The translations under genes and the position numbers were made by a program. The notes below the pieces were generated by a model. That model worked only from the letters and a program-made list of their open reading frames with translations, was not told the origin of the DNA and made no database searches. A stretch of DNA of 35,864 nucleotides from IMG/VR virus record IMGVR_UViG_3300034061_002064, positions 1 to 35,864 of that record; one strand, 5' to 3'. Source of the DNA: a virus. This document shows, one piece after another, positions 3,240 to 27,921 of this stretch (its first letter is position 1; every line of letters starts with the position of its first letter).

Positions 3240-3612
3240 CGTCACCGACGAATACAATCTCAATAGATTGTTTGATCGGGCCTCCGTCCGGGCCGCTTAA
3301 CTCAACTGAATTTGTATCTTTCCAGCCAAGGCGGGTTTTAGCCCAGAAGATCGCTGCCGGGGTGGCCCTTGGATCGTCCTTGGTGGCTTGGCGGTATAGG
3401 TTGCCGACAACCATTGCATGAGCCTTGGAGCCGCCAGCCGCTAATTCATCGGCAAAGTATTTCCGCAGCGTATTATCCGAAATGCCAAGCGCATAAGCGA
3501 TAGCTAGTTGCTGGAAGCCGCCAGCAGACATGACATTTACAATCCGGCGCTGTTCTTCGGTCGGTTCAAAAGGTGGACGCCCGCCTTTGTTAGTTGGCTG
3601 CTGCTCGTCCAC
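3217..3612 (-). CDS. terS: Probable terminase small subunit (HTH, DNA recognition)
   Basis: 131 aa protein directly upstream of the large terminase and overlapping it. The N-terminal half is a helix-turn-helix: GGRPPFEPTEEQRRIVNVMS followed by QLAIAYALGISDNTLRKYF. The C-terminal half (AAIFWAKTRLGWKD, then an acidic tail) is the type found in small terminase-like phage proteins and would mediate oligomerisation and contact with the large subunit. It would bind the packaging start site. The call rests on HTH plus position. Phage HTH proteins with a packaging role are diverse, so the identity is a little less certain than that of terL. Confidence 0.82.
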   Translation of the reverse strand: MDEQQPTNKGGRPPFEPTEEQRRIVNVMSAGGFQQLAIAYALGISDNTLRKYFADELAAGGSKAHAMVVGNLYRQATKDDPRATPAAIFWAKTRLGWKDTNSVELSGPDGGPIKQSIEIVFVGDDDDTPAS

Positions 3613-4858
3613 TCTTTACCTCACTAAACGTCTGGCCCGTCGCCTCTAGGGTTGCTTCCTTGCCGGTGAAATCCTGCCAACGGGTAACAGCCACATCAAC
3701 ATAGGCCGGGTTAAGTTCGCAGGCGTGGATATGACGGCCTGTCATTTCGCCCGCTATGATTGTTGTGCCAGAGCCGCTAAAAGGCTCGTAAACAGCCTGA
3801 CCGGGCGATGAATTGTTTTCAATAGGGCGCTTCATGCACTCAACGGGCTTTTGTGTTGAATGGCCCGTTTCTGACTTTTGCGGCTTGTCTATTTGCCAAA
3901 GAGTGGATTGCTTGCGGCCACCATCATAATGGCCGTTAGCTCCGCTTTTTACCGCATACCAGCAAGGCTCATGATGCCAATGATAATCACCGCGGCCAAT
4001 AGCAAAATTATTCTTAGCCCATATAATTTGAGAACGAAGACCAAAGTTATTAGCAATCAAGCTATCAGCTACCGAGCCAGCATAAAGTCCTGCATGCCAA
4101 ACATAAGCAACATCACCGGGGAATAGCGCCCACGCCTCGCGCCAATCAGCTTTGTCGTCGTTAGCAACTTTACCAAGAGCTTTGCCACCTATCGGAGTTC
4201 CATCGGGTCTCTTAGCCTTATTACGCCAGTCAGCGTCGTATTCCACACCATAAGGCGGGTCTGTAACCATCAAATGCGGCTTAACGCCATTCAGCGCCTT
4301 ATCAACCGTTTCAACGCTTGTGCAGTCACCACAAACAAGCCTGTGATTACCAAGCAACCACACATCGCCAAGAACCGTTACCGGCTCTGCTGGAGGCTCC
4401 GGCACAGCGTCCGGGTCTGTAAGCCCTTCGGTCTTTTCGGCCATAAGGTCGGCCAACTCACCGCCGCCAAAACCCGTCAGGTCAATATCGAAATCAAGCG
4501 CCTTCAGGTCAGCCAATTCGACCCTCAGCAAATCCATATCCCAACCAGCGTTTAAGGCCAGCTTGTTATCAGCCAGCACATAAGCGCGCTTCTGGGCCTC
4601 AGACCAGCCTTTAGCGACCATCACCGGGATTTCATCGATCCCTAGCTTCTTAGCCGCCATAACGCGACCGTGGCCCGCTATAAGCCCGCCTTCCTCATCA
4701 ACCAGAACCGGCGTCGTCCAGCCCCATTCGCGGATGCTGGCGGCGATCTGGTCAACCTGTTCGGGGCTATGGGTGCGAGCGTTGCGCGCATACGGCACAA
4801 GAGACGCAACCTTGCGGCGCTCGACCTTATCGGCAGGCCAAGCTGTTTGTTTGGACAT
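3590..4858 (-). CDS. ParB-domain / DNA methyltransferase fusion (N4/N6, class beta)
   Basis: Amino-methylates DNA (N6-adenine or N4-cytosine) using SAM; target site not readable. 422 aa. Residues 14-100 form a ParB/Srx-like domain (LVPYARNARTHSPEQV, then GLIAGHGRVMAAKKLG). Residues 160-400 are the methyltransferase: catalytic DPPY at 200-203, then STQKPVE and the SAM-binding FSGSGTT at 360-366. DPPY before FxGxG is the beta-class order. The ATG at 4858 has AGGG 6 bases upstream. It overlaps terS by 23 bases. Such fusions are common beside terminase genes, where they may protect or mark DNA before packaging; that role is inference. Confidence 0.92.
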   Translation of the reverse strand: MSKQTAWPADKVERRKVASLVPYARNARTHSPEQVDQIAASIREWGWTTPVLVDEEGGLIAGHGRVMAAKKLGIDEIPVMVAKGWSEAQKRAYVLADNKLALNAGWDMDLLRVELADLKALDFDIDLTGFGGGELADLMAEKTEGLTDPDAVPEPPAEPVTVLGDVWLLGNHRLVCGDCTSVETVDKALNGVKPHLMVTDPPYGVEYDADWRNKAKRPDGTPIGGKALGKVANDDKADWREAWALFPGDVAYVWHAGLYAGSVADSLIANNFGLRSQIIWAKNNFAIGRGDYHWHHEPCWYAVKSGANGHYDGGRKQSTLWQIDKPQKSETGHSTQKPVECMKRPIENNSSPGQAVYEPFSGSGTTIIAGEMTGRHIHACELNPAYVDVAVTRWQDFTGKEATLEATGQTFSEVKSGRAAAN

Positions 4859-6961: not shown

Positions 6962-7362
6962 TTGGTCGCCCCACGATTAGAGCCGACGACGTTTGTTCTA
7001 TTGATGTCGCGCATCAGGGATTGATACATGGCCTGCACACGCGCGCGTTCTTCCGGCGACTTTTCAGACCTGACAGGATTCTGACTTGCCAGGCGCAACC
7101 GCTGTTCTTTGACGGCCTTGTCAGCCAGTTCGGCGCAGCGTTCGTAGATTTCCCCGGCGTTAGGAGCAAACCGGGTAGCGCGACGGCAAAATGCCCGGCA
7201 GGCTTCGTCAACGATTTGCGGCGTAAAGTTCGATAAGGTTTCCAGATACGCCGCCAGAGTCGCAGCCGCCGTCGCCTCGTTCATCAACTGCGAGCCTTGG
7301 AAATTCAGAAACATCCTTGTTAGCGAGTCGCGCTTCGCCTGATTGTGCATCGGTATATCCAT
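6958..7362 (-). CDS. Probable replicative helicase loader-type protein
   Basis: 134 aa. The central part, AAYLETLSNFTPQIVDEACR followed by RFAPNAGEIYERC, matches the helical pattern common to phage helicase-loading or lambda P-like proteins found next to DUF1376 initiators: a Y..L..f....V..A repeat and an F.P..gEi segment. It would bring the host DnaB helicase to the phage origin. The full frame overlaps the upstream gene by 155 bases; a start at 7284 (MNEATAAATL) would leave 78. Neither start has a strong ribosome binding site. The family assignment is by pattern and context only. Confidence 0.65.
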   Translation of the reverse strand: MDIPMHNQAKRDSLTRMFLNFQGSQLMNEATAAATLAAYLETLSNFTPQIVDEACRAFCRRATRFAPNAGEIYERCAELADKAVKEQRLRLASQNPVRSEKSPEERARVQAMYQSLMRDINRTNVVGSNRGATK

Positions 7363-8077
7363 TTGATTTTAACCACAGTGACGCAAAACCATTACGCGAA
7401 CTCGTATTATTTGCCGGGCTTCCACGCGCCTTGTCGGCCATCCATTCGGGCTTGAACCCCGTCCAGCCACGCGCGATCATCTCAGCCGCAGCCGCTTCCG
7501 GGTCGCCATGTGCGTTGAAGGCTTTGACCAGTTCCCGCGCTGCCCTTGCGGTCAGCTTGGCCTTTTTGGCCTTGCGGTGAGCGATAATATCGCTGGCAGT
7601 TTGCTCAGATAGGCATTCGGAAAGGATAGCGGCGGGCGTAGCCTCGCGCGTATTATCTTCGTTAGAAGATAATATATGTGATTGTGATTGTGATTGCTTG
7701 AGCATTGCCACGTTTTTGCTCTGGCATTGCTCTGGCATTGCTTTAGCATTGCTAGAACAATCGGCTTTGGCATAGCCACCACGACGGCCTGCGGCAGCGC
7801 GACGGTCATAAGCGGCCTGTGCGCTGACAAGCTCTTGGTCTATGCGCTTGTGCCGCCATTCCGCGTCAAAAAACCCTTTAAGGGTAATTCCAGCGTCATC
7901 CCATTCATCCGGCGTCATTCTGGCTATTCTAGCCAGCTTGCGCTCGTCGTTTGGCAGGCCGCCGTTCGACCAGTAGTGCATAATCAGGAGCAAATAGGCT
8001 CCATGCTCTGCGGTGGATAAATGCCCGGTGTCGGCAAGATAGTCGGCCACATAAAGCGGCATCCAGGCACGGCTCAT
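7208..8077 (-). CDS. DUF1376 family protein, probable phage replication initiator
   Basis: 289 aa. The N-terminal 90 residues are a clear DUF1376 domain: AWMPLYVADYLADTGHLSTA, GAYLLLIMHYWSNGGLP and DDAGITLKGFFD, followed by a basic linker RRAAAGRRGGYAKA. The C-terminal part is low-complexity and then helical (AKKAKLTARAARELVKAFNA). DUF1376 proteins occur in phage replication modules at the place of a lambda O-like initiator, so binding an origin inside or near its own gene is likely. The linker at 7670-7760 contains tandem short repeats (TGATTG and GCATTGCT type) that could be iterons; this is speculation. Confidence 0.85.
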   Translation of the reverse strand: MSRAWMPLYVADYLADTGHLSTAEHGAYLLLIMHYWSNGGLPNDERKLARIARMTPDEWDDAGITLKGFFDAEWRHKRIDQELVSAQAAYDRRAAAGRRGGYAKADCSSNAKAMPEQCQSKNVAMLKQSQSQSHILSSNEDNTREATPAAILSECLSEQTASDIIAHRKAKKAKLTARAARELVKAFNAHGDPEAAAAEMIARGWTGFKPEWMADKARGSPANNTSSRNGFASLWLKSNGYTDAQSGEARLANKDVSEFPRLAVDERGDGGCDSGGVSGNLIELYAANR

Positions 8078-8889
8078 GCGGCCTCTCTTGCCGCAATAGC
8101 GCGGCCAATCAGTTCTGGAATTTGCGGAACGACTGCGTTTCCTAGCGCTCTAAGTCGCTGTGACCTATTGGGAATCCCATTAGCCACTCGACCCACATCG
8201 GGTTCAACGCTCCACCAGCTTGAGCCGCTAAAGTTGGCGTGTTCCTGGTGTATTCTGCCGGATAAGCCGCCTCCTTGGCATTGTGAGCCGTTGGAGTAGG
8301 CCACATTCGAACGGCATGGCAGAGCATTATCTGTTTTATCTTGTCTATTCTGTTCTGGATATTCAACGTGTCCGATTTCGCTTCTGTTGTGGTTGGGGTA
8401 GGCCACAATCCAGATACGGTCGCGCTGGTGAGGAGCGCCGACACTGGACGCCGATATAACTTCCCATTCCGCATCATACCCGACCTCGGCCAAGGTTCTG
8501 AGAACCTCGTCAAGCCCTCGAGCAAGCAATGCTGAGACGTTCTCCACGATGACGTAGCGCGGTCTAACCTCGCTAATAATTCTGGCGTATTCAAACCAGA
8601 GGCCGGAGCGTTCACCGGCAAGCCCTGCGCCTTTTCCGGCTGTGCTGATGTCTTGGCACGGGAACCCGCCGCAGATTGCGTCAACGGCAATTCCATCGGC
8701 AGCAAGTCGATCTGCTGTGATTGTTCTAACGTCATTGTATATCGGCACCTTGGGCCAATGCTTCGCCAAAACCTTTTGACAATAAGGTTCAATCTCGCAG
8801 AACGCGACAGTTTCAAAAGCGCCGCTGCGCTCTAGTCCCAGGGAGAAACCGCCAATGCCGCTAAAGAGATCAAGCAAGCGCATTTTCAT
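8074..8889 (-). CDS. DNA cytosine-5 methyltransferase (short, Dcm-like)
   Basis: Methylates C5 of cytosine using SAM; probably shields phage DNA from host restriction. 271 aa, short for the family. Motif I is LLDLFSGIGGFS (residues 5-16), motif IV GGFPCQDIS with the nucleophile Cys78, motif VI VENVSALL (Glu116), motif VIII QRDRIW (155-160) and motif IX/X RLRALGNAVVPQI (245-257). Only about 85 residues lie between VIII and IX, leaving little room for a target recognition domain. ATG 8889 overlaps the upstream gene by 4 bases. Almost the whole gene is also open in the +1 frame (see 8142-8735). Confidence 0.95.
   Translation of the reverse strand: MKMRLLDLFSGIGGFSLGLERSGAFETVAFCEIEPYCQKVLAKHWPKVPIYNDVRTITADRLAADGIAVDAICGGFPCQDISTAGKGAGLAGERSGLWFEYARIISEVRPRYVIVENVSALLARGLDEVLRTLAEVGYDAEWEVISASSVGAPHQRDRIWIVAYPNHNRSEIGHVEYPEQNRQDKTDNALPCRSNVAYSNGSQCQGGGLSGRIHQEHANFSGSSWWSVEPDVGRVANGIPNRSQRLRALGNAVVPQIPELIGRAIAAREAA
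8142..8735 (-). CDS. Out-of-frame ORF nested in the cytosine methyltransferase gene (WPTPT-type phage protein)
   Basis: 197 aa from ATG 8735 (AAGGTG lies about 10 bases upstream); open to 8816 if TTG is used. It reads the methyltransferase gene in the +1 frame. It contains the elements I associate with a recurrent phage protein: TSSWRTSQ, FSEPWPRSGMMRNGKLYRR, two WPTPT motifs (GLWPTPTTTEAK, MWPTPTAHNAKE) and the ending LNPMWVEWLMGFPIG. The methyltransferase frame carries its own conserved motifs over the same bases. Whether it is translated, or is a shadow kept open by methyltransferase conservation, cannot be decided here. The family memory is unverified. Confidence 0.4.
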   Translation of the reverse strand: MTLEQSQQIDLLPMELPLTQSAAGSRAKTSAQPEKAQGLPVNAPASGLNTPELLARLDRATSSWRTSQHCLLEGLTRFSEPWPRSGMMRNGKLYRRPVSALLTSATVSGLWPTPTTTEAKSDTLNIQNRIDKIKQIMLCHAVRMWPTPTAHNAKEAAYPAEYTRNTPTLAAQAGGALNPMWVEWLMGFPIGHSDLER

Positions 8890-9119
8890 CTACGGATGTC
8901 CTCCCACATAGCTTCCGCAAGGTCGCGCGGGTCAATCTGCTTCCTAACAGGGCCAGCGTTCTTGGCATTGGCCTTGGCGACTATCCCGGCGTAGATGTCG
9001 CGGATTTCGCGCATAACCATGAGATGCCGCGATATAAGCGTTTTGTCCGGCACACGGCCCGATGACAAAATGCAAACCACGGCCTCACACACAGCCAAGC
9101 GTTCTTGATTTGAAGCCAT
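8886..9119 (-). CDS. Small hypothetical protein
   Basis: 77 aa, not recognised. Predicted helical with an N-terminal SNQERLAVCEAVVCILSSGR segment and a C-terminal acidic helix ending AEAMWEDIRR. No membrane segment. It is coupled on both sides: its start base is the last base of the DnaA-like gene and its stop overlaps the methyltransferase start (ATGA). Context places it in the leftward replication unit. Confidence 0.75.
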   Translation of the reverse strand: MASNQERLAVCEAVVCILSSGRVPDKTLISRHLMVMREIRDIYAGIVAKANAKNAGPVRKQIDPRDLAEAMWEDIRR

Positions 9120-9658
9120 TAAGCTCCCCAGTAAGTATTATCGCGCGGAGCATCCCAGAGCTTGCGCAGCGCGTAGCATTGTTCGGCAATGGGATCGCCG
9201 TTGAGAATTAACCCGTCAATTTTACGGATTCCGTGAAGGACAGTGGAATGGTCACGACCCATAAGGCGGCGGCCTATTTCCGGCAGGCTGTATTGAGTGA
9301 CTTCTCGGCACAGCCAGTAAAGAACATGGCGAGCCAAAATGACGTTTTTCGTCCGTCTTTGGCTAAGTAGCTCTAATTCGGAAACTGAAAACTGGTTAGC
9401 TACTATCCGAACAATTTCCTCAATCTTCTTTTTGCAATTATAGCTATCCCGAAAATATATGATTGGCCGCATATCAAGCGGCGTAACAGGTTCTTGCTTT
9501 GCCTCTAGCTTGGCCGCGTCCTCAACCTGTTCAAGAATAATCTGCGCCTCTATAGCCCGCTCAATAGCTTCTTGCTTTCGTTTGGCGGCAAGCAATTCAA
9601 GGCGCTTTTGTTCGCACTTGTAAAACAACGGCCCACGGCGCGCGGCGGAACTAAACAT
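9119..9658 (-). CDS. DnaA domain IV-only protein (phage origin-binding or DnaA mimic)
   Basis: 179 aa. Residues 75-165 form a DnaA C-terminal (domain IV) DNA-binding domain with the signature GRDHSTVLHGIRKI (134-147). The N-terminal 60 residues are a charged coiled coil (CEQKRLELLAAKRKQEAIERA, shown in part as RLELLAAKRKQEAIERA). There is no AAA+ ATPase module, so it should bind DnaA boxes without opening DNA. I use ATG 9658 because it has AGAGG 7 bases upstream and forms TAATG with the RusA stop; the frame is open to 9721. It may direct phage origin firing or block host initiation; both are inference. Confidence 0.88.
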   Translation of the reverse strand: MFSSAARRGPLFYKCEQKRLELLAAKRKQEAIERAIEAQIILEQVEDAAKLEAKQEPVTPLDMRPIIYFRDSYNCKKKIEEIVRIVANQFSVSELELLSQRRTKNVILARHVLYWLCREVTQYSLPEIGRRLMGRDHSTVLHGIRKIDGLILNGDPIAEQCYALRKLWDAPRDNTYWGA

Positions 9659-10041
9659 TACGCTACCTCTACTGTTTTGATGATTTGTACTTGAGTGATG
9701 TCTAAATCTGAGTGCTGGCATTCGACATGCTTAAGAAACCGCTTAGAGTCGCCTTCAATGACGCCATGCGCTGTAAGCAAATCGAGGTAGCTCTTGATAG
9801 GATTGTCAGCGTCTAGGCGGCACTTCTTCGCCAGCTTGATGCGCACAGATATGGCCCCCGGAACACAGGCCGGAGATTGCGTCTCTAACTCAGCGCCAGA
9901 AGCCTTTTGCCATTCGCGGTATTCGCGCGACTTGATATTACGGCCTTTGAAAGCCCGCCAAATAGCGTTCGTGCTAAATGGCAGGGTTTCAAAATACAGG
10001 GTTTGAGCCTGTGCCGATTTGCGCGGGTAGCAATCAATCAC
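9658..10041 (-). CDS. rusA: RusA-family Holliday junction resolvase
   Basis: Endonuclease that resolves branched recombination intermediates. 127 aa, normal for RusA. The acidic metal-binding set is visible in LDADNPIKSYLDLL (Asp77, Asp79, Asp87) and GVIEGDSK (Asp98). The N-terminus has the expected PFSTNAIWR strand-turn. The start is GTG at 10041 with GAGGA about 10 bases upstream. It lies in the leftward replication unit although the recombinases are in the rightward unit, so both units would be needed for late concatemer processing. Confidence 0.9.
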   Translation of the reverse strand: MIDCYPRKSAQAQTLYFETLPFSTNAIWRAFKGRNIKSREYREWQKASGAELETQSPACVPGAISVRIKLAKKCRLDADNPIKSYLDLLTAHGVIEGDSKRFLKHVECQHSDLDITQVQIIKTVEVA

Positions 10042-19745: not shown

Positions 19746-20012
19746 TCAGCCCCCATTAACCCATGAGTCGCCATTATCGACCGGCTGCGGGATGTATTTT
19801 GGCTTTCTTACGAACTTGCTCGTATCGGTTCGGACATAGCCCGCAGAGACGCCCCGCTCCGCTTTCTGTAGCTGTAGGTATAGCTCCGCAATCCAGCACA
19901 CCGCGTCGTCGTAGGCGTCTGCGAGGTCGAGGTTTTTGTCTAAAAGCGCATCATGAATACCGCCGACAAGATCATTGGTTTGATGCAGTTTTACGATTTC
20001 TTTTCGTGACAT
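19746..20012 (-). CDS. Small hypothetical protein
   Basis: 88 aa from ATG 20012, which has AAAGG 6 bases upstream; the longer frame to 20054 would overlap the previous gene by 83 bases. Helical: SRKEIVKLHQTNDLVGGIHD, then DLADAYDDAVCWIAELYLQL, and a Pro-rich end. Not recognised. Confidence 0.7.
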   Translation of the reverse strand: MSRKEIVKLHQTNDLVGGIHDALLDKNLDLADAYDDAVCWIAELYLQLQKAERGVSAGYVRTDTSKFVRKPKYIPQPVDNGDSWVNGG

Positions 20013-21057
20013 CTTCGGCCTTTCTTGCTTCATAATCGGTTCGGATGGCGTCAAGCAGCTTCACACCTAGCTCAACCGTAGGAGCGCACCACACGCGCGC
20101 CCGGCTTGTTTCTGGCTCGTCTGGATCAACGATAATCAGCGCGCTTGGGTGGATTTTCTGGGGCGGGAAATTTAGCTGCTTGGCGTAATGATCAACTTGC
20201 TTGTAGCCGCTAACCCGGACAAGCTGGCTAACCATGCCGTCGCCGTCTAGGCATAGCCCTTGATCGCCGCCGCTATGTAAATGGCCCGAAACAAGGATAT
20301 GGTCACGGTGGCCGAAAGCCAGTTCGCGCCTCATGCCGTGGTTGATATTGTATTGCGACCGACCGGGGAAATCATGCCGCGCATTGATCCGGGTAACGAC
20401 GCCATTCGGGGACTTCAGAGCGATCCGAACGCCATGTTCTTCAGTAACCCCGCCAGCGTGGCGCAATATCCAGTTTAATGGATTTTCTAATCCACTGCCC
20501 TGCCAGCTATCGTGATTGCCCAAAACGCAAAATAAATTGTCGTGCTGGGTTAGCAACCATTCCGCCAGCATGATTGCTTCGTGAACGCTTGTGGATTGGT
20601 GAGCATATAGCCGCGCAAGCCGACCAACCCAGAAATTCGCAATGTCTCCGATATGGCCGGATAAGATTGCTGGATGTTTAGCAAGCTCCACATGGCTACG
20701 CAGTAGCCGCATATTGCAGCCGTCAGCGTCAACGTGAGGATCACCCCAGACCCAAAGCCCGAACGGCCCTTCAATACGAACATCAATCGGGATAAGCGAT
20801 CTGGCTTCGTCCGCCTCAATAGACCTATCTCCTGCGGCGGTTCTTTGTTCCAGCAGTTCTTCAATAGTCGGGAGCGCGCTAGGGAGCCTTGGTGCTTCAA
20901 ATTGCTTCTTAACGAGATTATTGTTTTTGATGCGGTCGTGAAGCGTAGCCCGTGCTATCCCCAATTCAGATGCTGCTTTTGAAATATTCCAACTATTCCT
21001 TTGAAGCGCGGATTTGGTTTTTGCCACTTCGTCTGGCGACAAGGGAGGGGTCGGCAT
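19972..21057 (-). CDS. Metallophosphoesterase with N-terminal HTH
   Basis: 361 aa. Residues 10-45 are a Fis/NtrC-type HTH (NISKAASELGIARATLHDRI). The calcineurin-like phosphoesterase follows with all metal motifs: WGDPHVD (Asp, His), SGHIGDI, LGNHDSW, NARHDFPG and SGHLHSGG. It should hydrolyse phosphodiesters or phosphomonoesters, and the HTH suggests a DNA substrate or site. It is placed directly after the lysis genes. Phosphoesterases of this two-part type occur in alphaproteobacterial phages, function unproven. ATG 21057. Confidence 0.88.
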   Translation of the reverse strand: MPTPPLSPDEVAKTKSALQRNSWNISKAASELGIARATLHDRIKNNNLVKKQFEAPRLPSALPTIEELLEQRTAAGDRSIEADEARSLIPIDVRIEGPFGLWVWGDPHVDADGCNMRLLRSHVELAKHPAILSGHIGDIANFWVGRLARLYAHQSTSVHEAIMLAEWLLTQHDNLFCVLGNHDSWQGSGLENPLNWILRHAGGVTEEHGVRIALKSPNGVVTRINARHDFPGRSQYNINHGMRRELAFGHRDHILVSGHLHSGGDQGLCLDGDGMVSQLVRVSGYKQVDHYAKQLNFPPQKIHPSALIIVDPDEPETSRARVWCAPTVELGVKLLDAIRTDYEARKAEDVTKRNRKTASNQ

Positions 21058-22843: not shown

Positions 22844-25800
22844 TAGTATGGTGCTCCGACAGTGGATTTTGCTTTCAGTGTAGCGTCTGGAAGGCGGGTG
22901 TTATAGAAAGCTGCTGAGGCTATCCACCCATTGATGGCATATCCGCTACCATAACCAATAGACACAGAAACAGCGGTTCCCATAGGCTGCGGTGAACCAG
23001 ACGAACCTTGAGTGCCGACCGTTCCGTTATTAGCTACGGTGCTAAACCCAATAGCGTCCCAACCAACTGCCGCACGGACAGGGCCGTTTGTCCAACCGCT
23101 ATGCGATGTGTTAGTTCCAAAAGCACCGTTATAGGATTGGACGATTGTGTTTGTTCCAGAGTTATAGAGCAAACGACGCAAGCTATAATCGCCAAGAATT
23201 GAGGTTGCTTTTGTCCCATAAAGCAACTTAGAGGTTTCAATTACCGCAGACGCAGTGTTTGAACCGGCAGCCGTAAGTGCGCCGCCACTAAGTTTAGGCG
23301 CATCAGCCACTCTCGTAACACTGGCAGTTGTCGTGGGGATGTAGCTGGTGGCGAAAGCGCCTGCTTCGAGTTGTGCGCCCCACAGGTAGATGCCGGAGAT
23401 GCCATCGCCTGTAAAAGTGCGGATGTTATCGGATGGAGCAGCAATCCATAAAACAGGTATTGACCCTGCTGGCGGTGTATATGTAACGCTACAACGATAC
23501 CACCCGTTTCCGACAGGAGTGATGCTATATGTAAATCCTGAGTAAGGCGTTGATCCAACCGTGCCATTAGCTAAGTTAAACCAAACTCCACGAGCGGCTA
23601 CTATTTCACACAAAAGCCAGTTATAGCCGCCAGCTTTTGCATATACTGTTGAAGTGTATGGTGTAGCACTCAATGTAGGCGATTGGTAAACACCTTTAGG
23701 GCTTGTAGTAGTATCAGCGCAGATGAAATCTGCTGTTTGCGTTCCATCCGGTGCTACAATAGCATTCGCAATAGACCCTGATCCAAACGCTAATATTCCA
23801 GCTTTCGTCCAGCTAGCGTTTTCAATTTGCTGACTATACGTAAGCAGGTTGACCCTACTCTCCTCAATCAGCATACCCCTCGCCGTCGCGGGCGTAGTGG
23901 ACGGATCGTAGTCATAGCGCGGCTGATACACCTCTGCGGTTGTGCTGACGCGATACTGCCTTGCAACGCTTTGATACGTTACGGCCTCAAACTGCGCTCC
24001 CCAGGCATATATTCCGCTTCCGCTTGTTCCGACATAGACGCCTGCTGCGTCTGCATTAGCGCAACCAAAGTCAAAGTAACGCGTGCCGGTATTCGTCACC
24101 GTCTTTTTTGCCGAAATGCGATACCAGCCGTTGCCTACATCGGTCACGCTGACAGAAACTCCACTTGCTACAGTCCCTACTGCTCCCGTCGAAAGATTAA
24201 CCCATGACCTAGATGAAGTGCCGTCATTAGGATCAATCCACATCCAATTCCGCTCTGCTGCCTTTGCATAGACCGACCATATATAGGAGTAGCCATCTGT
24301 CATCGTGCGGGTGCGATATACGCTATGCAAGGCATTAGTGGCATCTTCCGCAATCTTTATGGCGGTTGATGACCCATCAGGGGCTACAAATCCTGTCGTT
24401 AGTGTGACCCCGCGCTTCGTCCATGCGGCATTTGTGAAGTCTTGCGAATACATCAACATATTCGCCGGAGCCCACGTCAGCGTCCCGGTGCTGTCGTAAT
24501 ACATCCGGTTGCCCGTCGTGCCGCTGTTGTCGATCCACGACGGGGACGGGATGTCGCCAGCGTAGGCATTCGTGTATGCCCGCAGCGACGTGACCCAGCC
24601 AAATGTCGGCGGGTTGATGGTCACAGAACCGGAAGTAACCACAGTCTCAGGGAAGCTGCTGGATACGCCGGTTTCCTGATCGATCCAGTAGGCTTCCACA
24701 AGTCGGTTGGCGTAACCGGAGATTGTGAAGGTTTCTGCGGCGCGGGCGACTGTGGATGCGACTGTCGGGATGTAGGATGTGGGGAATGCGCCAGCTTCAA
24801 GCTGTGGCGCTGCAAAATAAAGACTTTCCGTTCCGGCAGCAGTCCCAAAATTGATAGAACCTGACGCGGTAGCAAAAGTATTGCCTGTAGCCGATGGCGC
24901 TAGTTCCAGAATAACTAAAGCCGTTGCCGGAGACACCGAACAAACCATTCCGACACGAAACCAGCCATTACCTACGTTCTGTTTGAATGTCGAAAAAATT
25001 GTTCCGCTTACCGAACCTACCGCTGTCTGAGATGCAACCGCAGTAACGGACGTTGATAGGTCAAATACAGCAGAAGCCCAGTATCCAGTCCCCGTCCCAG
25101 AAAGAGTAATGGCTGCGTAATTTAGAGTTCCTGCCTTAACATAGCAGGAGACTGTATATTGAGCATTACCGGTTATGGAGATGGAAGACGTCGTATAAAC
25201 CTGCGGTTGTCGCGCAGTTCCCGACGTTGCGGTAAGTTTCTGGGCGGCCGCGCCTGTTGGGTCGAGAGTTGTGTCTGTAGAAAACGCAGACTGAAAAACA
25301 CTCCATGCAGCATTGGTAAGAGCAGATGATTGAAGCAGCAGGTTCGTCCGCGTCCCCTCAACCAACAGCCCCTTTGCAGCAAGCGTTGACGGATCGTAGT
25401 CAAAGCGCGGGCCGTAGTAGGCGGCAGATGTCGTGGCGACGTAGGTGGACGGCGTGGTCTGGTAGGTGACGGCTTCGATCTGCACACCCCACAACAACAA
25501 GTCAATGCTGTCGGCAGCGGCAGGCGACTGTCCGCCATAAAGACCAAGACGAATACTGCCAGAAGCTGTTGCGGTTGCCGTGAAATTAAAGCGTTGCCAG
25601 CTATTTGTCACAGTCGGTAAAAGCTGTGACGCGCCGCCGATTAAGGCATACATTACCGCAGACGTGCCGGTGTTTAGTCTTGCATAAAACGAAACCACAT
25701 AAGTAGTGCCAACAACAAGGCTAAGGTTCTGGCTAACAAATGAACGGTCGGAGCTAGTCGTCCCTGCATTCAGCGCGCACTGAACACGCGTTGCCGTTGT

Positions 25801-26991: not shown

Positions 26992-27921
26992 TTAGTTTAT
27001 GCGATACCACGTCGTATTCGCTAAGCGGTAAATATACCCAAGCACCTGTCCGGCAGTCGCAGATGTATGCGCGTGCGAAAAGGTGCCGTTAGATAAGGTC
27101 AGCGTTGTCACGGCGCTGCTACCTGCCGTAACGCCGGTCGCATTGATCGAAATAAACTGCGTCTGACCATTTACCGGCGTGGACGGGAAAGTGATTGTCA
27201 TCGCCGCATAGGCGGCTGAAAGCTGCGCGATATGGTAGGGCGTGGTCGCAGACAGGGTGACGGTCTGGCCCGTGGCGGTAATCGATGTAAAGCCGATCCC
27301 GGTATGGATTTCCTGCGCCGCCTGTGTAAACGATCCACCGGCGGAAAACGCCCCCGTGACAGACATGTCGCCCGCAAACGCAACGGATTTGTCCTGCTCA
27401 ACCGTAAAGGCGTCAGTAAGGGTGGTTGAACCATTTGGCGTCGTGGCGAAAACAATCTTGGTCCCGTGAGCGGTCGCGGTCCATGCCTGCGTCGCAACCA
27501 TTCTGATCTGAGCGCGAGGGCCAGCAGAATAGGCCGTAGCGCCAAAGCCAAGAACATCGACTGTGCCAAGAACGTCGCCAGAAGCTACCGCAGAGGCCGC
27601 AGCGCTAGTAATGTTGGCCCGGCGCAATCTAATGCCGGGAATACCACCAAAACCGTCAACCTCCATAAACTGATTGGCCGATGTGCCGTTACCAATCAGT
27701 CGGTAAATGTAACCGGCGTCGGCGGCAGGAGGAGATGTAACGGCTGTTGTATTGGCTGAAACGGTAAGCGGAGCCGCAAAGGCGGCTGTAACATACGCCT
27801 CAATCGTAGCGCCAAGCGCCCGGCAATCCGATTTTGCAACCTGTTTCACGCCAGAGCCGGAATTTCCGTCCGTATTATAATCCCTAAACGCACTAGAAAA
27901 TGCGGTTGATATTGTTCCCAT
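26992..27921 (-). CDS. Tail fibre protein
   Basis: 309 aa. The opening FRDYNTDGNSGSGVKQVAKS, DCRALGATIEAYV is a common attachment head of phage fibres. The middle is Ser/Ala/Gly/Thr rich beta structure, and the end (ITFPSTPVNGQTQFISINAT, then LGYIYRLANTTWYRIN) resembles the ends of fibre tips, like that of the 146 aa neighbour. It probably joins the tail tip to the larger receptor-binding fibre. Confidence 0.78.
   Translation of the reverse strand: MGTISTAFSSAFRDYNTDGNSGSGVKQVAKSDCRALGATIEAYVTAAFAAPLTVSANTTAVTSPPAADAGYIYRLIGNGTSANQFMEVDGFGGIPGIRLRRANITSAAASAVASGDVLGTVDVLGFGATAYSAGPRAQIRMVATQAWTATAHGTKIVFATTPNGSTTLTDAFTVEQDKSVAFAGDMSVTGAFSAGGSFTQAAQEIHTGIGFTSITATGQTVTLSATTPYHIAQLSAAYAAMTITFPSTPVNGQTQFISINATGVTAGSSAVTTLTLSNGTFSHAHTSATAGQVLGYIYRLANTTWYRIN

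Follow-up and report, generated by a model that had tools for sequence, protein, structure and literature searches.

Lee, Kam and Shaw are said to have found in 1995 that the small subunit of M.EcoHK31I, a methyltransferase of which M.EaeI is an isoschizomer, is nested in another reading frame. M.EcoHK31I (YGGCCR) is a cytosine-C5 methyltransferase of two polypeptides, the smaller of which has motif IX only, and a published account gives its target-recognition domain (TRD) a predicted location on the large subunit (PMC3404938). M.AquI (CYCGRG) is likewise an alpha/beta C5-methyltransferase, split partway through the variable region so that the small polypeptide has the distal variable region, motif IX and also motif X (PMC3404938). 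Bacillus phages SPR, H2 and their relatives encode multispecific single-chain C5-methyltransferases with tandem, exchangeable target-recognition domains (PMC8936443).

Here we analyze a 35,864-base IMG/VR virus record (the window), in which one stretch of DNA very probably encodes a two-polypeptide cytosine-C5 DNA methyltransferase, with a small chain (beta) nested in the gene for the large chain (alpha), as in M.EcoHK31I. Compared by published description, the two systems share a large chain with motifs I–VIII and X and a small chain with IX; the window's small chain is also encoded within the gene for the large one but out of frame with it, as is said of M.EcoHK31I. Unlike in the published description of that system, the recognition modules here appear to sit in the small chain, judging from selection (dN/dS of 1.33 in alpha and 0.29 in beta) and from relatives. 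We consider the window's system a likely member of the M.EcoHK31I type. It resembles M.AquI in having two predicted polypeptides, and split relatives (the Paraburkholderia locus L246 and phages Dylan, Samy and ICleared) divide their parts as M.AquI does, with X in beta; unlike in M.AquI, the window's motif X stays in alpha and its beta is fully nested. As in the Bacillus phage enzymes, a phage C5-methyltransferase appears to have tandem exchangeable modules, mostly two or three per beta where any are found and shared across divergent backbones, but here they would lie on a separate, overprinted subunit instead of a single chain.

Nested +1 genes of this kind have already been marked by annotators, as gp51 of Paenibacillus phage Rani ('g50 Internal gene', DNA methyltransferase) and as gp55 inside gp54 of Babsiella. 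These annotations give no function past 'DNA methyltransferase', and many other records annotate alpha only. Beta also matches the PHROG family phrog_1008, whose label, 'DNA methyltransferase', is silent on its being a +1-frame partner.

The locus and its nested frame

The methyltransferase gene (8889-8074, minus strand, 271 aa; PF00145, 7.8e-51; TIGR00675, 2.1e-43) is coupled by ATGA overlaps to both neighbors, 8886-9119 before it and 7208-8077 after it, the latter a DUF1376 primosomal protein. Its motifs run in the order I (FSGIGG), IV (PCQ), VI (ENV), VIII and X, and residues P77, C78, Q79, E116, N117, R156, R158, G250, N251 and P255 are invariant. Elsewhere in the window, 3590-4858 (minus strand) encodes a second, different methyltransferase with a ParB-like N-terminal domain and an N6/N4 DNA methylase (phrog_498, 2e-145), and 9119-9721 (minus strand), two genes upstream of alpha, encodes a phage protein with a C-terminal DnaA DNA-binding domain (PF08299, 1.5e-25); a dnaA-like gene also lies near the nested methyltransferase of Paenibacillus phage Harrison. 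The features of the locus, with the evidence for each, are as follows.

8074..8889, minus strand: alpha, catalytic subunit with motifs I–VIII and X and without motif IX (PF00145, TIGR00675, M.HhaI, AF2)
8125..8145, minus strand: alpha motif X core, LGNAVVP (G250, N251 and P255 invariant; aligned to M.HhaI 'QFGNSVV')
8185..8376, minus strand: alpha residues 172-234, a spacer predicted to be disordered, without a target-recognition fold (pLDDT; alpha dN/dS 1.33)
8142..8735, minus strand: beta, nested +1 gene of 197 aa, the proposed DNA-recognition subunit; open upstream to 8831 (constraint, ATG, dN/dS)
8746..8751, minus strand: Shine–Dalgarno (SD)-like AAGGTG, 10 nt 5' of the beta ATG; GAGGT in many relatives (anti-SD energy)
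8463..8555, minus strand: conserved beta core, TSSWRTSQ...WPRSGMMRNG, overlapping alpha motifs VI–VIII (constraint 1.6-2.6 times expected)
8304..8405, minus strand: putative beta recognition module 1, WPTPTTTEAKSD... (cut at PTP motifs; TRD-region dN/dS)
8217..8303, minus strand: putative beta recognition module 2, WPTPTAHNAKEAAYPAEYTRNTPTLAAQA, exchangeable as a cassette (match to locus L014; 27-locus cluster)
8160..8207, minus strand: beta motif IX, LNPMWVEWLMGFPIGH (motif IX matrix; constraint up to 3 times expected; beta dN/dS 0.07)

An earlier note on this DNA had found the +1 frame of the methyltransferase gene open for 225 codons. Our reading agrees, with the count running from TTG (ORF 8816-8142, minus strand, 224 aa); from stop to stop the full opening is 229 codons (8831-8145, stop at 8142). 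The motifs that it paired over the same bases (AGKGAGL/PEKAQGL, IVAYPN/LWPTPT, NVAYSN/MWPTPT and EPDVGRVANGIP/NPMWVEWLMGFPI) read as claimed, whereas its list of the next-longest nested same-strand frames left out 123 codons at 27198-27569 and 108 at 23241-23567. In synonymous shuffles of the window's gene, which retain the protein and its codon usage, the longest +1 run averages 114 codons (p = 0.006-0.01 for the real run). Although the real run comes out on top among the window's 66 frame tests, its length is by itself non-significant because 66 tests need correction, and we dropped ORF length as proof of coding (p of about 0.01 among 66 tests). Second in the window is a 134-codon open run in the +1 frame of 19972-21057 (minus strand; p = 0.011 against synonymous shuffles), which is probably due to chance among these 66 tests.

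Coding signals across homologues

With the window alone insufficient, the case for coding comes from comparing homologues: 147 distinct alpha genes, drawn from 80 IMG/VR loci found via the +1 product, 80 found independently via the enzyme frame, and named phages. The longest open +1 run spans a median of 83% of the gene in alpha-found and 88% in beta-found homologues, versus 39% in synonymous shuffles, an excess well outside what chance would give, and the +2 frame of the 147 homologues has no excess openness over shuffles. Four-fold sites were compared where the amino acid is the same, between gene pairs at 40-65% alpha identity. Their identity was 0.301 before the beta start (expected 0.279), 0.504 in the overlap with motifs II–VIII (expected 0.279), 0.542 in the TRD region (expected 0.275), 0.930 over 'LNPMWVEWLMGFP', which is motif IX (expected 0.277), and 0.324 past the beta stop (expected 0.273). 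Across the 147 genes, synonymous codon choice is strongly conserved within the +1 ORF but random elsewhere in the gene. Frequent +1 stops in homologues and a lack of synonymous constraint were the findings that, according to the earlier note, would speak against a real +1 protein; neither was observed.

A sliding constraint profile stays flat at about 1.0 to alpha codon 52, climbs from codon 55, reaches its maximum of 3.0 at motif IX and fades beyond 8142. At alpha codon 55, the +1 frame reads ATG ACG TTA (MTLEQSQQ; ATG at 8735-8733), and an ATG occurs at the aligned beta start (-2 to 0) in 100 of the 147 genes, with about a third lacking one. The mean anti-SD duplex energy is -3.67 kcal/mol, compared with -2.19 kcal/mol in synonymous shuffles (130 genes). 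Because constraint begins at this ATG, we prefer it to TTG 8816, which we dropped as the start; the true beta start is likely to be ATG 8735-8733, with a predicted product of 197 aa. The earlier note had raised the possibility that the +1 protein is real, and this is borne out by synonymous constraint, by conservation of the start and SD and by dN/dS in the +1 frame (below). At the level of sequence, the comparison confirms that the +1 frame of the methyltransferase gene encodes a second protein.

All 165 of the +1 matches examined lie in the exact +1 register of a catalytic gene. This holds for 85 of 85 viral loci and for 80 of 80 from bacteria or archaea, which were found in GTDB genomes via a motif-IX pattern. 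Similarity in the +1 frame extends to at least 589 IMG/VR stretches, at least 319 genome stretches and at least 135 phage records, and no standalone +1 family was found in phages, plasmids, GTDB genomes or IMG/VR. The absence of any homologue outside a methyltransferase gene had also been proposed as a sign against the protein. That absence holds literally, as would be expected of a subunit, and relatives carry homologous parts in frame or as a partly separate gene.

Division of parts between the two frames

Selection was measured in each frame with an OLGenie-type count of dN/dS over 68 pairs of 80-98.5% nucleotide identity, the class quoted here, as values at 60-80% identity are less reliable from saturation. 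Across motifs II–VIII, dN/dS was 0.16 in alpha and 0.69 in beta, where selection on beta is weak; in the TRD region (alpha 166-228), it was 1.33 in alpha and 0.29 in beta; and at motif IX, 0.35 and 0.07, respectively. Among close relatives, the +1 frame of the region past motif VIII evolves like a protein, whereas its enzyme frame drifts neutrally. Selection at the protein level thus acts on both frames, in each across its own part, and from these frame-specific ratios we assign the catalytic motifs to the enzyme frame and recognition and motif IX to the +1 frame.

An AF2 model of alpha has pLDDT of 90-98 over most of residues 1-160 and 250-270 and below 50 at 172-214 and 219-234. Foldseek aligns the model with M.HhaI over 168 columns at 1.6 A, in the catalytic part only, and the sequence match to M.HhaI covers 3-177 (E=6e-23), plus a sub-threshold match at motif X. 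When we looked for a TRD and motif IX in the catalytic chain, alpha had no match to IX, and its residues 172-234 were predicted to be disordered. AF2 of beta alone (90-row alignment) reached pLDDT 60 and pTM 0.30 without a Foldseek match, the beta profile found no relative among PDB sequences, and Pfam and NCBIfam hold no family for it; we weighed the poor beta model and its lack of a Foldseek match neither for nor against beta as the putative small domain.

A motif IX matrix built from canonical single-chain methyltransferases, such as LTPRECARLMGFPDTF, has its best match at LNPxWVEWLMGFPxGW in beta and none in alpha; 62% of 90 betas exceed the 99% null, although the window itself scores only modestly (p=0.02). 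Ahead of motif IX lie the modules cut at PTP motifs, of which there are two in 65 betas, three in 19, four in 4 and one in 4, the simple pattern used for cutting giving none in 29. Module 2 of the window is 93% identical to a module in locus L014, whereas the surrounding beta backbone is 36% identical, and across the 27 loci of its cluster identity is 0.72 in the module and 0.44 in the backbone. This is the pattern of putative exchanged recognition cassettes, comparable to the tandem TRDs of Bacillus phages (PMC8936443). Since the window's beta has two modules, the enzyme possibly has two methylation targets. Because the +1 product carries motif IX as well as apparent target-recognition modules, beta would complete the enzyme; it is most likely the missing DNA-recognition half, a function that the earlier note overlooked.

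The same parts occur in other arrangements among relatives. In split relatives (Paraburkholderia L246, mycobacteriophages Dylan and ICleared and Streptomyces phage Samy), alpha ends past motif VIII, and beta continues through PTP modules, IX and X; when viral sequences were scanned with Samy's split beta, no relative turned up. Motifs I–VIII, PTP modules, IX and X share one frame in Babsiella gp54 (a Mycobacterium phage), Gordonia phage Jabberwocky gp4, prophiT49-1 gp22 and IMG/VR loci including L311, L312, L315 and L326, and L311 and L335-L337 are fused single-frame actinophage enzymes. In fused or split relatives, motif IX stands ahead of X. The CheeseTouch group has IX and X within alpha's frame and the modules in +1, and here constraint at IX equals the group baseline (about 1.2) while reaching 1.9-2.6 over the +1 'SETWPRTG' core; this drop at IX is an internal control.

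Two further observations concern these rearranged or damaged loci. In the fused enzymes L311 and L335-L337, the +1 core over motifs VI–VIII is still synonymously constrained; in fused enzymes, a stop sometimes precedes this core and leaves it as a mini-ORF of about 100 codons, which is where Babsiella gp55 is annotated. Four bacterial loci (L194, L198, L201 and L231) have a broken alpha frame and an open beta frame and are possibly decaying prophage genes or sequencing frameshifts.

Competing explanations and implications

In the proposed two-polypeptide enzyme, frame 0 would make alpha, the catalytic domain with the AdoMet-binding and catalytic motifs I–VIII plus X, and beta would start independently at the internal ATG with its own ribosome-binding-like site. 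Beta would carry at least one exchangeable target-recognition module, with motif IX behind it. Alpha and beta would then come together as a single enzyme, with beta serving as its small, target-reading domain. Could the +1 frame instead be untranslated, appearing open and conserved solely through the conserved alpha protein and its codon usage? Some of the similarity does arise in this way: a beta HMM trained on half of the loci scores synonymously shuffled alpha genes at a median of 102 bits, +1 runs in shuffles cover 39% of gene length, and the window by itself yields a p of only about 0.01 among 66 tests. Held-out real genes, however, reach a median of 260 bits, with 3 of 102 inside the shuffled 99% range, and the window scores 306 bits, whereas the best of its 20 shuffles reaches 164. 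The suggestion in the earlier note of a widespread shadow is right in that similarity is inflated but does not account for the scores of real genes or for the coding signals. An untranslated frame is highly improbable, given that four-fold sites are conserved inside beta only, that beta dN/dS is 0.07-0.29 while alpha is neutral in the TRD region, that constraint at IX is at baseline once IX is in alpha's frame and that 16 canonical methyltransferase ORFs have no beta-family +1 match above 20 bits. Because alpha conservation inflates +1 similarity, E-values in this frame need discounting, including that of beta against phrog_1008 (E=1.5e-24; 58 of 58 members of set A1 match too), and after the shuffle control we dropped phrog_1008 and tblastn E-values as proof.

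If beta is a real protein, it might have a separate job outside the methyltransferase (for example, as a regulator, an anti-restriction protein or a toxin-like protein), as would suit its lack of a fold from AF2 and Foldseek and of a Pfam family. We regard this as unlikely: in the loci examined, beta is never seen without the catalytic gene, alpha lacks exactly those parts that beta has, and fused and split relatives connect beta's modules and IX to motif X. The wide overlap of the frames could also serve programmed +1 frameshifting that joins N-terminal alpha and C-terminal beta in a single chain, and the existence of fused single-frame relatives proves a chain of this sort feasible. It is nonetheless very unlikely here because a shift past motif VIII would bypass the N-terminal half of beta, where constraint reaches 2.6-fold, and the beta ATG and SD are conserved; given how the window is laid out, the resulting chain would also be without alpha's motif X. 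Finally, the constraint acts at the nucleotide level and blastn similarity is confined to the overlap, as might be seen with an RNA or DNA element, but a constraint that runs for about 190 codons, keeps inside the limits of the +1 ORF and tracks +1 codon positions, with no Rfam match, leaves a vanishingly small chance of an element that is not a protein.

The two-subunit reading of this locus may extend to a larger group. With some reserve, we lean toward a large superfamily of C5-methyltransferases, in phages and prophages, whose catalytic gene holds the target specificity in a different frame from its own. Distant phages would exchange the recognition cassettes as DNA that has to remain open in two frames. 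In such a superfamily, the modules, IX and X would have been moved between frames by indels, yielding nested, split and fused forms, while the TSSWRTSQ/WPRSGMMRNG core would stay overprinted on motifs VI–VIII even when the enzyme is fused.

Judging from sequence, a nested-subunit arrangement known from few bacterial enzymes would here be found across many phages and bacteria. In many such records a single methyltransferase is annotated and half of the enzyme would be overlooked; with that half unannotated, expressing the annotated product alone, or predicting its target, would fail. Database families built on the +1 product are partly real and partly shadow. The locus and its relatives offer a broad sample of long overprinting on one strand with a clear division of labor, which helps in testing how two proteins share DNA, and they suggest that the specificity of such enzymes sits in the hidden frame.
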